The notes beneath the pieces are model-generated. The model had not been told where the DNA came from. It worked only from the letters and a program-made list of their open reading frames with translations, and did not search any database. From Gelria sp. Kuro-4 (lineage in GTDB: Bacteria; Bacillota; DTU030; DUMP01), in NCBI RefSeq assembly GCF_019668485.1, contig NZ_AP024619.1, positions 2,659,757 through 2,723,756 of the forward strand: DNA of 64,000 nucleotides, given 5' to 3'. Made by a program: the position numbers and the translations under genes. Shown in pieces: positions 13,192 through 21,084 of the stretch (positions are counted from its first letter, which is position 1; each line of letters starts with the position of its first letter).

Positions 13192-14895
13192 TCAAGCCTG
13201 CACGGCTTCCAGGTGCGCCCGGACGGCCGCGGCATCCGGCAGGGAAAGGGCCTTCGCGGCGATGCGCTGTGCCTCAGCATAGCTGAGCGCACGCAGGCGC
13301 TCCTTCACCGCCGGCAGCGACCCGGCCGCCATGCTGAACTCATCCAGGCCCAGCCCCAGAAGAAGCGGCGTCGCCAGCCGGTCGCCGGCCAGCTCACCGC
13401 ACATGCCGGCCCAGATGCCGGCGGCGTGGGCGGCCCGGATGGTGCGCTCGATGAGCCGCAGCACCGCCGGGTGGAAAGGCTCGTACAGGTAAGCCACCCG
13501 TTCGTTGTGGCGGTCGGCCGCCAGGGTGTACTGGATGAGGTCGTTGGAGCCGATGCTGAAAAAGTCCACCTCCGGCGCGAGGAGGTCGGCGGCGAGCGCC
13601 GCCGCCGGCACCTCCACCATGATGCCGACCTCGATCTTCTCCGCCAACTTGACCCCGGCCCGGGAAAGCTCTTCCCGCACCTCTTCCAGGTGCCGCCGGG
13701 CGGAGCGCACCTCGGCCGGTGTCGCTACCATAGGGAACATGACCTTGACGTTGCCGTAGGCGCCGGCCCTCAGGATGGCCCGCAGCTGCGTGCGGAAAAC
13801 CTCGGGCCGGGCCAGGGAAAAGCGGATGGCCCTCAGGCCCAGGAAGGGATTCTCCTCCCGGGTGAGCCCCAGGTAGGGCAGCTCCTTGTCGCCGCCGATG
13901 TCCAGGGTGCGGATGATAACCGGCTGCGGCGCGAAGGCGGCCACTACGGTGCGGTAGGCTTCGAACTGCTCTTCCTCGCTGGGAAGGTCGGTGCGGTCCA
14001 TGTAGAGGAACTCGGTGCGAAAGAGGCCCACCCCCTCCGCCCCCAAGGCCTGCGCCGGCCCAACATCGCCCGGCGTGCCGATATTGGCCGCCAGTTCCAC
14101 GCGCCGGCCGTCCCGGGTCACGCCAGGGAGGTCCTTAAAGGCAGCCAGGCGCGCCTTCTCTTCCTCTGCGGCCGCCTGCCGCCGGCGCCACTCTTCCAGT
14201 TCCCGGTCTGAGGGGTTCACCGCGACCAGCCCCTGTGTTCCGTCCACGGCCACCAGGTCGCCGTCGCGGACGGCGCTGAGCCGCTCGCCCAGGCCCACCA
14301 CCGCCGGGATCCCCAGGGACCGCGCCAGGATGGCTACGTGGGCGGTGCGGCCGCCGGTGCCGCTCAGCAGAGCCAGGAGCTTATCCTTGGGCAGCTGGGC
14401 CGTCTGCGAAGGCGTAAGGTCCGCGCCCACCACGACCGCCGGCGCCGGCAGCACCACCTCGGTCCGCGCTCCGGTAAGCTCGGCCAGGAGGCGCCCGCCC
14501 ACGTCGCGCACATCGGCGGCGCGCTCCCTGAGGTACTCGTCCGGCAGTGCACCCAGCGCCGCGGCCAGGTCGTCCACCACCCGCGTGAGCGCCGCCGGCG
14601 CCGCCAGCTTCTCCTCCCGTATGAGCCGCCTGGTCTCACCTACGAGCGCCGGATCGTCCAGCATGAGCAGGTGGGCGCCGAAGATCGCCGCCTGCTCGGC
14701 ACCCACCTCCCTTTCCGTGCGCTCTTTCAGGGCGGTAAGCTCACGCCGCACCGCTTCCACCGCCGCAGTCAGGCGCGCTTCCTCTTCCTGCGGTTCAGCC
14801 GCCGGCCCCGTTTGTTCGAGACCGCCAATCGTCTTCTTAAGGACGGCCGCCGGCCCGATGGCTATTCCCGGCGCCGCCGCCAGACCCTGCCACAT
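13192..14895 (-). CDS. ptsI: PTS Enzyme I
   Basis: Phosphoenolpyruvate-protein phosphotransferase of 567 residues, which passes phosphate from PEP to HPr. The swivelling-domain phospho-His is in GGRTAHVAILARSLGIPAV (His186; E. coli His189). The PEP-binding C-terminal barrel is complete (VGLFRTEFLYMDR; FFSIGSNDLIQYTLAADR; GMCGELAGD with the catalytic Cys). It is last in the dihydroxyacetone kinase operon and no sugar PTS transporter is in the window. It therefore probably serves DhaM. Confidence 0.96.
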   Translation of the reverse strand: MWQGLAAAPGIAIGPAAVLKKTIGGLEQTGPAAEPQEEEARLTAAVEAVRRELTALKERTEREVGAEQAAIFGAHLLMLDDPALVGETRRLIREEKLAAPAALTRVVDDLAAALGALPDEYLRERAADVRDVGGRLLAELTGARTEVVLPAPAVVVGADLTPSQTAQLPKDKLLALLSGTGGRTAHVAILARSLGIPAVVGLGERLSAVRDGDLVAVDGTQGLVAVNPSDRELEEWRRRQAAAEEEKARLAAFKDLPGVTRDGRRVELAANIGTPGDVGPAQALGAEGVGLFRTEFLYMDRTDLPSEEEQFEAYRTVVAAFAPQPVIIRTLDIGGDKELPYLGLTREENPFLGLRAIRFSLARPEVFRTQLRAILRAGAYGNVKVMFPMVATPAEVRSARRHLEEVREELSRAGVKLAEKIEVGIMVEVPAAALAADLLAPEVDFFSIGSNDLIQYTLAADRHNERVAYLYEPFHPAVLRLIERTIRAAHAAGIWAGMCGELAGDRLATPLLLGLGLDEFSMAAGSLPAVKERLRALSYAEAQRIAAKALSLPDAAAVRAHLEAVQA

Positions 14896-14937: not shown

Positions 14938-15204
14938 CTACGCTTCCCCGCAACCGGCCGCCAGGAAGGCCGCCAGTTCCGCCAGTGCCTGCTCCTCGTC
15001 CGGACCGTCGGCCGTCAGGGTAACGGTGGAACCCTGGCGCGCTCCCAGGGCGAGCACGCTGAGGATGCTCTTGGCGTCGGCCTCCTTTTCTCCGGCCCGG
15101 ATCCGCACCGACGCCCGATACTGGTTCGCCTTCTGCACAAACGCCGCGGCGGGGCGCGCGTGGAGGCCCAGCCGGTTGGTCAAGGTTACGCTTTGTTGCT
15201 GCAT
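14938..15204 (-). CDS. ptsH: HPr phosphocarrier protein
   Basis: 88-residue phosphocarrier. Phospho-acceptor His15 lies in RLGLHARPAAAF. The regulatory Ser46 is kept in the typical context (ADAKSILSVLALG), so HPr kinase control is possible. It lies between dhaM and ptsI and supplies phosphate from Enzyme I to DhaM, since DhaM here lacks its own HPr and EI domains. Confidence 0.96.
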   Translation of the reverse strand: MQQQSVTLTNRLGLHARPAAAFVQKANQYRASVRIRAGEKEADAKSILSVLALGARQGSTVTLTADGPDEEQALAELAAFLAAGCGEA

Positions 15205-15220: not shown

Positions 15221-15613
15221 TTAAGTTTTCTTGAGATTACGTGCTGCTTCCGCTGCCGCTTTCACTTCAGCGAGGTTTTTCCCCAAGCTGCTTTCCACCG
15301 CAGCCGCCACTGCTCCTTCCACCAGAGGGGCATCCGCCAGGGCCACCCGCTCCCGAAGTTCGGGAGAAAGAAGTTCCAGCGCCATTTCAGTGCTGAGGAC
15401 GGCGCTTCCCAGGTCGGCCAGCACCAGCACTCCATCCGGCCCGGCCACCGCCTCGATGGCCTCCTGGATAAGCGTGGCGTCTGTGCCCAGCCGGCCGTCG
15501 CGCGTGCCGCCGGCGGCGGCCAGGGGCAGCTCGGGGGGCGTCATCTGCCGTGCCAGCTTCTTCGTTCCTTCCGCCACCTCGGCGGAGTGCGAAACGATGA
15601 CTATGCCCACCAT
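15221..15613 (-). CDS. dhaM: Dihydroxyacetone kinase phosphoryl donor subunit DhaM (EIIA-man domain only)
   Basis: 130-residue EIIA-mannose-type protein that hands phosphate from HPr to the ADP bound on DhaL. Active His9 lies in GIVIVSHSAEVAEG. DGRLGTDATLIQEAIEAV and VLADLGSAVLSTEMAL are family motifs. The start is the ATG at 15611-15613, where homology begins; an upstream in-frame extension has no homology. It is a single-domain form, unlike E. coli DhaM (EIIA-HPr-EI fusion). Confidence 0.94.
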   Translation of the reverse strand: MVGIVIVSHSAEVAEGTKKLARQMTPPELPLAAAGGTRDGRLGTDATLIQEAIEAVAGPDGVLVLADLGSAVLSTEMALELLSPELRERVALADAPLVEGAVAAAVESSLGKNLAEVKAAAEAARNLKKT

Positions 15614-15624
15614 GGCCGCCGCCT

Positions 15625-16149
15625 CTACTCGGCCAGGGCCGCGATCAGGGTGCGGCAAAAGTCGGGCAGGTCGTCAGGTTTGCGCGAGGTGATCAGGTTA
15701 CCGTCCCGGACCACCGGCCGGTCCACGTAGGTGGCGCCGGCGTTTTCCACATCGTCCTTGACCGCTATGGTGGCGGTCATGGTCTTTCCCTTGAGGACGC
15801 CGGCGGAAACGAGCACCCAGGGAGCATGGCAGATGGCCGCCACCGGTTTACCGGCGGCAAAGATGTCCCGGACAAAAGCCAGGACCGCGCCGTAGCGGCG
15901 CAGCTTATCCGGCGCCCAGCCGCCCGGCACCACCAGGCCGTCGTAGTCGCCGGCCTCCACCTGGTCGATGGTTTTGTCGGGGCGGCTAGGGAGCCCATAC
16001 TTACCCCGGTACTCCGGGGCGCTGCCTGTGCCGATCACATCCACCGCGGCGCCGGCCTCGCGCAGCCGGAGGATAGGATACCAGAGTTCCAGGTCTTCAA
16101 AGCCTTCTTCGGTAAGCACGGCAACGCGCCTGCCTGTAAGTTCCGCCAT
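15625..16149 (-). CDS. DJ-1/PfpI-family protein in the dha operon
   Basis: 174 residues with the nucleophile elbow VAAICHAPWVLVSAG (Cys) and the acidic residue in VLTEEGFEDLELW, typical of the PfpI/YhbO branch. A GGAGG site lies 6 nt before the ATG at 16147-16149. It sits between dhaL and dhaM with short gaps. DJ-1-type proteins have reported glyoxalase or deglycase activity. Since dihydroxyacetone (phosphate) breaks down to methylglyoxal, a protective role is a reasonable inference. A protease role is less likely in this setting. Confidence 0.88.
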   Translation of the reverse strand: MAELTGRRVAVLTEEGFEDLELWYPILRLREAGAAVDVIGTGSAPEYRGKYGLPSRPDKTIDQVEAGDYDGLVVPGGWAPDKLRRYGAVLAFVRDIFAAGKPVAAICHAPWVLVSAGVLKGKTMTATIAVKDDVENAGATYVDRPVVRDGNLITSRKPDDLPDFCRTLIAALAE

Positions 16150-16150
16150 G

Positions 16151-16789
16151 TTACTTCCTCCCTGCTAGAAACTCAGCCATGGTCTTGAGGATAAGGTAGC
16201 TGGAGGTCGCACCCGGGTCCTGGTGGCCGATGCTCCGCTCACCCAGGTAGCTTGCCCGGCCCTTGCGGGCGATGATACCCTTGGTGTACTCCACGCCGGC
16301 CGCCGCCGCCGCCACGCCCGCCGCCAGGGCGGCCGTCGCACCTTTGCCGGCGGCGACTTCCTTTTGGATGGCCTCGTACGCCGGCTCCAGGGCGTCCACC
16401 ATGGTCTTATCCCCGCGCCCGGCCTTGCCGCGCTGCTTGACGCCCTCGACGGCCGCCCCCAGCGCCCGGACCAGGTCGGCCGCTGTCAGGCTGTCCCTGC
16501 CGGCCACGGCCGTCCCCGCCCGCATAAAAGCCGTACCGTAAAGCGGGCCGGCGGCCCCGCCCACGGTGCTCACCAGGGTCATACCCACGGTTTTCAGAAT
16601 GGTGCCGGCGTCTTTCCCGGCAACGCCCGCCACCTTCTCTTCCACGGCGCGGAAGCCCTTGGCCATGTTGATGCCGTGGTCGGCGTCACCGATGGCGCTG
16701 TCGAGTTCGGTGAGAAACGCTTTGTTCCCCTCCAGGGTCTGCCCAATGGCACGTATCATGTCGGTGAGTTCCTGAGCTGTTAAAGGCAC
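16151..16789 (-). CDS. dhaL: Dihydroxyacetone kinase ADP-binding subunit DhaL
   Basis: 212-residue all-helical subunit holding a permanently bound ADP/ATP with two Mg ions. The Asp cluster in LDSAIGDADHGINMAKGF supplies the Mg ligands. Nucleotide-contacting glycine and serine segments follow (TVGGAAGPLYGTAFM; GRASYLGERSIGHQDPGA). The GTG start at 16787-16789 has GAGGG 7 nt upstream. It accepts phosphate from DhaM and passes it to dihydroxyacetone on DhaK. It is followed by a DJ-1 gene instead of directly by dhaM. Confidence 0.95.
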   Translation of the reverse strand: MPLTAQELTDMIRAIGQTLEGNKAFLTELDSAIGDADHGINMAKGFRAVEEKVAGVAGKDAGTILKTVGMTLVSTVGGAAGPLYGTAFMRAGTAVAGRDSLTAADLVRALGAAVEGVKQRGKAGRGDKTMVDALEPAYEAIQKEVAAGKGATAALAAGVAAAAAGVEYTKGIIARKGRASYLGERSIGHQDPGATSSYLILKTMAEFLAGRK

Positions 16790-16855: not shown

Positions 16856-17854
16856 TCACAGCTGCTTGAAACCGGGGGTGTCGGCCGGGGCCGCCAGGAG
16901 TTCTTTGAGCTCTTCGTCCAGTTTGAGCAGGGTGACCGAGCAACCGGCCATCTCGAGCGAGGTCATAAACTCGCCCACGTAGGTGCGAAAGACCTTGATC
17001 CCGCGCTCCGCCAGCATGGCGGCCACCTTCTTGTTCACGATGAAGAGCTCCATGAGCGGCGTGCCGCCCAGGCCGTTCACCATCACCGCCACCTCGTCCC
17101 CGCTCTTGAAGGGCAGGTCGGTGAGGACCTTCTCTGTCAGGTGGGCCGTGATCTCGTCGGCCGTCTTGATCTTTTCCCGGTGGGTGCCCGGTTCGCCGTG
17201 GATGCCCATGCCGATTTCCATCTCGTCCTCGGCCAGGGCGAAGTTGGGTTTGCCGGCCGCCGGCACAATACAGGGGGTGAGGGCCATACCCATGCTGCGG
17301 ACGTTGGCGATCGCCTTCTCCGCCACCGCCTTCACCTCAGCCAGGCTGCCGCCGGCCTGGGCCCTGGCACCGGCGATCTTGTGGACGAAGATGGTCCCGG
17401 CGATGCCGCGCCGTCCCTGCGTCCAGGTGCTGTTTTCCACCGCCACGTCGTCGTTCACCACCACGCTGGCCGTCTCAATGCCCTCGGCCGCCGCCATCTC
17501 GGCCGCCATGTCGAAGTTCATGACATCGCCCGTATAGTTCTTGACCACCAAGAGCACGCCGGCGCCGCCGTCCACCGCCTTAACGGCGGCCAGCACCTGG
17601 TCCGGCGTGGGAGAAGTGAAGACATTCCCGGCGCAGGCCGCATCCAGCATGCCGCGCCCTACGTAACCGCCGTGGGTGGGCTCGTGGCCGCTGCCGCCGC
17701 CTGAAACCAGCGCCACCTTCCCCTTAACGGGGGCATCCGCCCGCACCACCACGTTCAGGTCCGGCAGCAGGCGGACATACTCGGGATAGGCCGCCGCCAT
17801 CCCCGCCAGCATGTCCTCGACCACACGTTCCGGCTGGTTGATGAGCTTCTTCAT
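16856..17854 (-). CDS. dhaK: Dihydroxyacetone kinase substrate-binding subunit DhaK
   Basis: Binds dihydroxyacetone covalently as a hemiaminal on a His (EIGMGIHGEPGTH). 332 residues with SGGGSGHEPTHGGYVG and VLLVVKNYTGDVMNF typical of the family. It is the first gene of the operon. Its ATG at 17852-17854 follows an AAGGAGGAG site, about 43 nt after the predicted start site of a sigma-54 promoter. The expected upstream enzyme, glycerol dehydrogenase, is not in the window. Confidence 0.96.
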   Translation of the reverse strand: MKKLINQPERVVEDMLAGMAAAYPEYVRLLPDLNVVVRADAPVKGKVALVSGGGSGHEPTHGGYVGRGMLDAACAGNVFTSPTPDQVLAAVKAVDGGAGVLLVVKNYTGDVMNFDMAAEMAAAEGIETASVVVNDDVAVENSTWTQGRRGIAGTIFVHKIAGARAQAGGSLAEVKAVAEKAIANVRSMGMALTPCIVPAAGKPNFALAEDEMEIGMGIHGEPGTHREKIKTADEITAHLTEKVLTDLPFKSGDEVAVMVNGLGGTPLMELFIVNKKVAAMLAERGIKVFRTYVGEFMTSLEMAGCSVTLLKLDEELKELLAAPADTPGFKQL

Positions 17855-17906
17855 CCTCTACTCCTCCTTCTTGCATACTGGACCCAGGGTACCACTTTTG
17901 GGGACA

Positions 17907-17923
17907 TGCAAGCAGCGTGCCAG
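17907..17923 (-). promoter_or_regulatory. Sigma-54 (-24/-12) promoter of the dhaK operon
   Basis: The minus strand reads CTGGCACGCTGCTTGCA, a full match to the sigma-54 consensus YTGGCACG-N4-TTGCW. The predicted start is near 17897, leaving a leader of about 43 nt before dhaK. The gene for a sigma-54 activator ends 150 bp upstream. Confidence 0.9.
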
Positions 17924-17973
17924 CCGCCGGCCCGGGGCCGGACGGTCGCGGCACGGGGTTCAGCGTCCTCTCT

Positions 17974-18010
17974 GGGGAATACTTCCCCAGGATCCTGGGT
18001 AGTATTCCCC
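17974..18010. promoter_or_regulatory. Large dyad, probable activator binding site for the dhaK promoter
   Basis: A 37-bp dyad. Outer arms GGGGAATACT and AGTATTCCCC are perfect (17974-17983, 18001-18010). The centre CCCAGGATCCTGGG is a 14-bp perfect palindrome (17986-17999). Its middle lies about 71 bp upstream of the -24 element, a fitting place for an upstream activating sequence bound by the neighbouring sigma-54 activator. Confidence 0.75.
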
Positions 18011-18074
18011 CAGGTGGGGCGATCTGCTCCAGAGGCGCTTTTCCCCGCCCGGGGGCAGCCCAACCCCCTCCGGC

Positions 18075-20117
18075 CTAGCCGCTCGCAGGCAGCTTCTGTT
18101 CGGTCAAACGGTACTTGCGCGCCCGCGCGGCCACTGTCTTATGATCCAATCCCAGGGCCCGTGCCGCCGCCCGAAAGCTCCCGCACTCGGCCAGGGCCCG
18201 GGCGAGGATCGCTTTTTCGTAGGCAGCAAAGGGAAGGAGCGGGGCCTCTTGCGCCGCCGCAGCGAAAACGCCGGGTGCCCCCCCTTCGCGCACGTAAGCG
18301 GGCAGGTCGGCCGCCGTGACGGTCGCACCTTCAGCCAGGTTCACCGCCCGCTCGATGACGTTCTCCAGCTCACGCACGTTGCCGGGCCAGGCGTACTGCT
18401 CCAGGCAGGCCAGGGCTTGGGCCGTGATCCCTTGTACCTTCTTTCCCAGGCGCCCGGCCAGCTTGGCCAGAAAGTATTCCGCCAGGCGCGGGATGTCCTC
18501 GCGCCGTTCCCTGAGCGGGGGCAGGAAGATGGGGATGACGTTCAGGCGCCAGTACAGGTCCTCGCGGAAGCGGCCGGTGCGCACCATCTCCTCCAGGTTC
18601 CGATTCGTGGCGGCGATGATGCGCACATCGACCCGGATGGTGGTCTCGCCGCCCACGCGCTCGAATTCACGCTCTTGAAGCACCCTGAGGAGTTTAGCCT
18701 GCATGGCCGGTTCCATATCGCCGATCTCGTCGAGGAAGATACTGCCGCCGTCGGCCAGCTCAAAGCGGCCGTGGCGGCGCTGCCAGGCGCCGGTGAAGGC
18801 GCCCTTTTCGTGCCCGAAAAGTTCGCTCTCAAGAAGCGGCGCCGGGATGGCGGCACAGTTGACCCGGACAAACGGCCGCCCGGACCGGGGGCTTGCCGCG
18901 TGCAGGGCCCGGGCCACCAGTTCCTTGCCCGTGCCGCTCTCGCCGCGGATGAGGACGGTAGAGGTACTCGCCGCGGCTTTTTGCGCCACCGCCAGCGCCT
19001 CCCGCAGCGCGCCGCTTCGGCCGATGATACCGGCGAAGGCCGCCGGGAGCTCCTGCGTGCGGGTGAGCTCCTGCTCCAGGTACTCCGCCCGCGCCAGCAC
19101 TTTGTGCAGGTGTTCAGCTAACCTTTCCACCTCCGAGACATCCTTGACCACCGAGACAGCGCCGCAGATCTCCCCTTCCACGTAAATAGGGGAAACATTG
19201 GCCACCAGCGTCCGCCCGTTCGCCTTGCGCGTCAGCGCCCCCAGCACCTTCTCCCCGCTCCTCAGCACCCGGGCGCGCACGCCCTGGGGTGAAAGGGCGA
19301 AGACGCTCTTTCCGATGAGCTCAGCCCGGCGCCGGCCGGCAATCTCCTCGTAGGCCGGGTTGACGTAGGTGATCGTACCCTCCTTATCCACCACCGAAAT
19401 GCCGTCGTGTACCGTGTCCAGTACCAGCTGCAGGCGCTCCTTCAGCTCCTTCACCGCCCGGAGCTCACCGGCCAGCTCCTCCACATGCGAGATGTCCTCC
19501 AGCAGCGTCACTGTACCGCGGGTTTCCCCCTCCAGCAGGATGGGCGTACAGGTGGCGATGACCGCGCCGCCGGGGAGCGCCTGCCGCCGCGTTGCCGGCT
19601 CCCGGTTCGTTCGTACGGAAGCAGCGGCGGCCTCAGGCCAAAACTCCCCAATCGGGCGGCCCAGGGCGGCCGGCGCCGGCAGCCGGAAAAGGCGCTCCGC
19701 CGCCGGGTTGAAGACCACCACCCGATCCTTGGCATCCGTTACCACCAGCCCGGCCGCCATGCTGGTAAAGATTTGCCCGGCCGTTAAAGTGGTTTCATCC
19801 AAAAGATCGTCCACCTGGCTCAAGGGTCCCTGGGCGTCGGAGGAAAAGTCGCGCTCCAGAAAGCGGGCCAGCTCCGCGGTGGCTGCCTCGGCCCCCGGGC
19901 CCCGGGCCAGGACGCTGAGCCGAGCCCCCTGCCGGAGGTCAAGCCCCAGCACGGCCAGCATACTGGTGGCCGGCACCTGGCGGCCGTCGGCCGCCTTCAG
20001 TTCCAGCTCGGCGCCGTAGAGCCGGGCCAGCTCCGTCGCTTTCTGCACCACCAGGGCCGCCACCCGCGCATGCAGCCCGCGGCTGTGGCGGATAACGGCG
20101 GTCTCCGCATGCTTCAT
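18075..20117 (-). CDS. Sigma-54-dependent activator with N-terminal HPr domain (HPr-PAS-PAS-AAA-Fis)
   Basis: 680 residues from the ATG at 20115-20117, which has a GGGGAGG site; longer upstream readings have no homology. Residues 1-90 are an HPr domain keeping the phospho-His (His16 in RGLHARVA) and a Ser at the Ser46 position (Ser52, [10 protein letters not shown]). Two PAS-like domains follow at about 105-215 and 225-335. The AAA+ sigma-54 domain has Walker A GESGTGKE (392-399), GAFTGA (439-444) and Walker [10 protein letters not shown] (458-466). A Fis-type helix-turn-helix ends the protein ([19 protein letters not shown]). It is immediately upstream of the dyad, sigma-54 promoter and dhaK-ptsI operon. 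It therefore probably activates that operon, perhaps tuned by PTS phosphorylation. Confidence 0.93.
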
Positions 20118-20205: not shown

Positions 20206-21084
20206 CTACAAGAAGAGCAGCACCAGTGTTGTGGCCAGGGCGATGGCACAGGCCGGCGGGTCGATGTGGTTCTTGCCGTAGTTATAGCAGAGACGGGCGA
20301 AGAATTCCCCGAGGAGGGCGCCGACGATTCCAAACACACCGCCCATGATCACGCTCTGCGTAGCCGCTGCCGCCAGCGCTGCCGGCAGCGTGATGTGGTG
20401 GGTGACCGGCCAGCCGGGACCGAATTCCAGGAACACCAGGGACGCGGCGCTGATACCGAAGGCTAAGACAGGCTGCCCGGTGGCCACCGCGAGAATCCCG
20501 GCCGCCAGGCCGAAGCCCAGACCAAGCACTACCAGCTGCCCAAAGTCCTTCTGCCAAGGGAGCCAGCAGTGTCCTTCCGTAATTACAAAGCGGCCGCCGA
20601 AGCCCTTCTCCTTCATTTCCGCCGGCAGGGAACCAAAGGGCCCGTCGCCCAGGAACACCGCCCGGGCGATGATCGCCGACACGGCCACGCTCAGGGCCAC
20701 GGTGTCCGTCTTGAGGCTCATACCCACCCAGAAGGCGTTAAGAAGATAACCGATCACGCCGAAAACACCGCCGACGAGAAGAACACCCGGATCGTTGAAC
20801 TTGGTGAGCGGTACGCCGATGTCTTTCCCCGTGATGTCGAGTCCCTTGCGCGCCGCGTAGGCCGCCGCCGCCACGCCGCCACCGAAGGCTACGTGGGGGC
20901 CCAGGAAGGGACCGAACGCCACGGAACCGATGATCTGCGCGGCCTGGGGCTGCCCGAAGAAGCTCGCCGCCACGCCGGCCAGGACGGCTAAACCAGTAAG
21001 GATGAAGGCCGGCAGTCCACCCATGGCCGCGCCGACGATGCCGCCGCCGAATGAAGCCACCAGAGCATTGATGTCGATAGCCAT
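20206..21084 (-). CDS. Polytopic membrane protein with internal duplication, candidate glycerol/dihydroxyacetone transporter
   Basis: 292 residues, very hydrophobic, with about 8-9 predicted membrane segments. I do not recognise a characterised family. The two halves appear to be a direct repeat: GQPQAAQ...[11 protein letters not shown]...[14 protein letters not shown] matches GQPVLAF...[11 protein letters not shown]...[14 protein letters not shown]. Both end in a polar turn ([20 protein letters not shown]) before a last helix. It lies between glpP and the sigma-54 activator gene, so transport of glycerol, dihydroxyacetone or a relative is plausible, but nothing in the sequence proves it. A GC-rich hairpin without U-run (20166-20192) follows its stop. 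Confidence 0.85.

Follow-up and report, generated by a model that had tools for sequence, protein, structure and literature searches.

What controls the dihydroxyacetone kinase (dha) operon of Gelria sp. Kuro-4, and what does the 37-bp dyad in front of dhaK contribute to that control? In the 64,000-nucleotide stretch of DNA analyzed here (the window), the region from 17907 to 20117 very probably (a probability of roughly 0.9) controls a sigma-54-dependent dihydroxyacetone kinase operon through tandem enhancer sites for a DhaQ/DhaR-type activator encoded next door, a reading that draws on sequence comparison. The features concerned are collected in Table 1, and the predicted operon has the order dhaK-dhaL-DJ1-dhaM-HPr-EI.

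Table 1. Genes and predicted regulatory sites of the dha locus, in window coordinates.
Feature	Position	Strand	Remarks
ptsI-like enzyme I (EI) gene	13192..14895	minus	PF02896, PF05524, PF00391
HPr gene of the operon	14938..15204	minus	translation MQQQSVTLTNRLGLHARP...; active-site His, kept in the same-genus genome G002
dhaM, single-domain EIIA-man phosphoryl donor	15221..15613	minus	PF03610; TIGR02364 above cut-off; start picked by comparison with G002
DJ-1/PfpI family gene within the operon	15625..16149	minus	PF01965; TIGR01382 above cut-off
dhaL	16151..16789	minus	PF02734
dhaK, first gene of the operon	16856..17854	minus	PF02733; TIGR02363 above cut-off
sigma-54 promoter CTGGCACGCTGCTTGCA	17907..17923	minus	-12 C at 17908; inferred +1 near 17896
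Proximal predicted activator site TGGGGAAGTATTCCCCA	17973..17989	minus	palindrome with 3-bp centre; centre 17981, ~85 bp upstream of inferred start
Distal, weaker predicted activator site TGGGGGAATACTACCCA	17996..18012	minus	centre 18004, ~108 bp upstream of inferred start
Activator gene, 680 aa	18075..20117	minus	HPr, two PAS, AAA+ sigma-54 interaction domain, Fis-type HTH

The promoter is the clearest element of the locus. The full-consensus match that the first-pass annotation placed in front of dhaK is correct in both coordinates and bases: it has no mismatches to YTGGCACG-N4-TTGCW, fits the pattern TGGCAC-N5-TTGC(A/T) with GG and GC correctly spaced, and stands alone in the window as a perfect match, where shuffled sequences lead one to expect 0.02. 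The absence of rpoN, which that annotation had named as an observation that would speak against its reading, is excluded, as the gene is encoded in the genome (PF04552, E 3e-60). A scan for sigma-70 promoters found nothing. Counting from the -12 position at 17908, the predicted transcript begins at about 17896 (17897 in the earlier annotation); 42 nt of leader, including a strong ribosome-binding site, would then precede the dhaK ATG at 17854. Genome-wide, the pattern TGGCACR-N4-TTGCW has eight perfect sites, six of which have a bEBP AAA+ domain encoded no further than approximately 750 bp away, indicating that this genome uses local pairs of activator and promoter.

The gene directly upstream encodes such an enhancer-binding protein. 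Its Pfam matches above cut-off are PF00381, PF00989, PF00158 (247 bits) and PF18024, and the translation combines the AAA+ sigma-54 interaction domain with a GAFTGA loop and a Fis-type HTH. A homology search with the whole protein returned generic AAA+ relatives and was set aside; the orthologous activator is 83% identical in G002 and approximately 40-56% identical in scattered families of Bacillota. The active-site histidine of the HPr domain (His16) is kept in all 23 aligned orthologues, although a group of 552-aa orthologues has Gln in place of Arg two residues past it. This invariant histidine suggests that the phosphotransferase system acts on the activator directly, and that a ligand is not the sole input.

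The DNA between activator gene and promoter contains two similar palindromes in tandem, with centres 23 bp apart. The stretch CTGGGGAAGTATTCCCCAG (17972-17990) is a palindrome by itself, with 8-bp arms around a 3-bp centre, a parse that was missed in the earlier annotation; when the 220-bp intergenic region was shuffled with its dinucleotides preserved, arms of this kind arose in 25 of 3000 cases. Two similar palindromic 17-mers turned up in 1093 of 3000 shuffles, but this test carries little information, as the distal site falls below its threshold. The distal copy is imperfect here, one of its halves being longer by a G through a slip of one base. A search for the same dyad elsewhere, proposed as a check on the earlier reading, located the core GGGGAA-N3-TTCCCC a single time in the 2.88-Mb genome, in this region, and GGGGAANNNTTCCCC of the proximal site likewise has one genomic occurrence. 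With two mismatches allowed, the operator gave 26 matches in the genome (both local sites counted) versus 17 for the control, which is near the control level, and no second target is therefore claimed.

Comparison with relatives identifies which parts of this region are maintained. G002 retains both sites (CGGGGAAGTATTCCCCG, which aligns with the distal site, and CGGGGAGAATTTCCCCA, 23 bp apart) together with the promoter TGGCATGTTCCTTGCA in an intergenic region that has otherwise drifted: identity between the two genomes is 11/17 and 12/17 over the sites and 13/16 over the promoter, whereas the DNA adjoining them scores 21/60 and 20/49. In the distant G239, TGGGGAAAAATTCCCCA and the promoter TGGCACGTTAATTGCA precede dhaK, with dhaK and the activator gene on opposite strands. 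In most of the approximately 40 Bacillota genomes whose orthologous activator includes an HPr domain, dhaK or HPr-EI is preceded by 17-bp palindromes built in the same way, and a sigma-54 promoter lies downstream of them in most of these relatives; by a strict pattern, no sigma-54 promoter before dhaK or HPr-EI passed in G056, G419, G277 or G207. Where two sites are present, the distance from centre to centre is in most cases 22-23 or 30-33 bp, which is near two or three helical turns, and G056 and G419 have one clear site only. The circuit described in the first-pass annotation, with its activator encoded just upstream, thus holds as far as the bEBP gene and the conserved set are concerned; the nested modes of its dyad are not supported.

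The two sites also differ in composition from those of most relatives, being GC-rich (TGGGGAA-N3-TTCCCCA) where the majority have TTGATA, TTGGTA or TTGGGA, as in TTGATACTTTTTACCAA or TTGGTAAATATTACCAA. In the HTH, SFR and D/N-H (here Arg649 and Asp658) are shared by all three regulators with GGGG-type sites, while the remaining regulators have SFN (SYN once, TFN once) and T/S-H. Operator class agrees with these two residues in all 39 regulators placeable on the tree, a pairing that represents no more than one or two independent events, too few for a formal correlation test. When the HTH is left out of the tree, placement of the three GGGG-type regulators in one clade is rejected (p-AU 0.004), although G239 is a long branch. 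The G-rich operator and the recognition helix of its activator seem to have changed in concert, a lead rather than a proof, and the GGGGAA operator class, seen only with SFR and D/N-H and in two lineages separated on the tree, may be new. Tentatively, and with the odds somewhat against it, the operator could, within this one family of PTS-linked sigma-54 activators, have switched on two or more occasions between half-sites of the TTG(A/G)(T/G)AA type and of the TGGGGAA type. The same helix change would have accompanied every switch (Asn/Arg at the last position of SFN/SFR, and Asp or Asn replacing the Thr that precedes the conserved His), which would amount to a simple two-residue specificity code for Fis-type bEBPs. 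The paired change of operator and helix could help to predict the DNA sites of the many sigma-54 activators that still lack assigned targets.

There are several potential alternative explanations for the palindromes. They could be bound by another regulator, such as a repressor or another of the bEBPs of this genome, which has approximately 15 full-length bEBP AAA+ domains; however, sites of this kind accompany the activator orthologue across families, even where the neighboring operon is HPr-EI rather than dhaKLM (G339, G275, G229 and G152), and their class follows the HTH residues of the activator, which makes this explanation very unlikely. Slightly less probable still is that the dyad acts as RNA, a terminator or attenuator hairpin ending the activator transcript. 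The dyad lies 62 bp beyond the stop codon of the activator gene, and its predicted fold (-29.5 kcal/mol, z -2.9) is better than that of shuffled sequences, but it is without a T run and a terminator scan was negative. In addition, G410 and G056 have a separate T-run hairpin between palindrome and promoter, the palindrome sequence is kept across distant genomes, and one palindrome of G410 overlaps the activator stop codon, as a DNA site would. Least probable of all is the reading proposed in the first-pass annotation, a single composite 37-bp operator with two nested binding modes. In its favor, neither dyad has a mismatch here, over 10 bp in the outer arms and 14 bp in the inner dyad, and both are rare in shuffled sequences. 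In G002, however, the outer arms are down to 6 bp and the inner dyad is altered while both 17-bp palindromes and their 23-bp spacing are kept, the spacing of 22 or 30-33 bp in other genomes leaves no fixed 37-bp unit, and similar palindromes in tandem yield nested dyads unaided, with no need for a second binding mode.

Two tandem sites also account for the geometry that the composite reading had set out to explain. The perfect arms of the outer dyad (17974-17983 and 18001-18010) and the perfect inner dyad CCCAGGATCCTGGG (17986-17999) are indeed present at the positions first assigned to them, and outer arms of such length and spacing are rare, occurring in 6 of 3000 dinucleotide shuffles of the intergenic region. 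The midpoint of the two site centres, 17992.5, is the exact centre of the inner dyad, and the centre of the outer arms is displaced by half a base because the distal copy carries its extra G. The one-base asymmetry that had been taken as a sign of nested modes is thus a slip in the weaker copy; in G002 the distal copy is clean at the same spacing. What is conserved is the 17-bp palindrome, as a rule present twice with a spacing of 22-33 bp.

In Escherichia coli, DhaR is a bEBP-like AAA+ activator of dhaKLM, a GAF/PAS regulator that works with sigma-70 and acts through DhaK and DhaL. The activator described here is of a different type, scoring 239 bits against the 551 cut-off of the DhaR model NF008485 and carrying an HPr domain. 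A closer counterpart is a group of EBPs in Clostridiales with dhaKLM and ptsI as predicted targets, which appears as DhaQ in a table and as DhaR in the text of the passages concerned (Nie, Dong and Yang 2019, PMC6615313), the two names being taken here as one group. The same passages report PTS-HPr domains in some EBPs and multiple UAS before most targets (PMC6615313). The regulon of that group resembles the present one in joining dhaKLM with ptsI, here adjacent to the EBP gene, the likeness being one of target and domains (PMC6615313). A sigma-54 promoter has likewise been predicted for dhaKLM of Clostridium beijerinckii, in a source whose relevant passages do not describe an activator site (PMC6510779). 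Sigma-54 control of a dha operon is therefore a kind of circuit already known or predicted in related bacteria; the present locus provides a complete example with corrected anatomy (two tandem sites), beyond the genomes in which the regulon was described.

Under the tandem-site reading, activator dimers would bind both 17-bp palindromes from roughly the same side of the DNA, oligomerize, and loop to the RNA polymerase-sigma-54 complex approximately 85 bp away to drive open complex formation. Less certainly, the EI, HPr and DhaM proteins of the operon may phosphorylate or bind the HPr domain of the activator, such that phosphoryl flow to dihydroxyacetone could set its activity.

Several further observations concern neighboring genes. 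Both G000 and G002 have the DJ-1/PfpI gene (deglycase/glyoxalase-like) within the dha operon, and in the distant G239 this gene is next to the operon; its product perhaps handles methylglyoxal arising from dihydroxyacetone phosphate. Between glpP and the activator gene (20206-21084, minus strand) lies a gene for a predicted membrane protein of 292 aa, 90% identical in G002, that has no Pfam or NCBIfam match and was not seen at more distant dha loci; it is possibly a glycerol or dihydroxyacetone transporter. No activator site was found before glpP-glpF within the 64-kb window. At several loci of relatives (L241, L242, L245 and L280, among others), glpP-glpF is preceded by another activator site together with a sigma-54 promoter, and the regulon in those relatives thus seems to include glycerol uptake. 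At L239 (7909-7925) and L242 (8398-8414), the activator gene runs into the distal activator site, the same bases serving the stop codon, the last residues of the protein and the DNA site.
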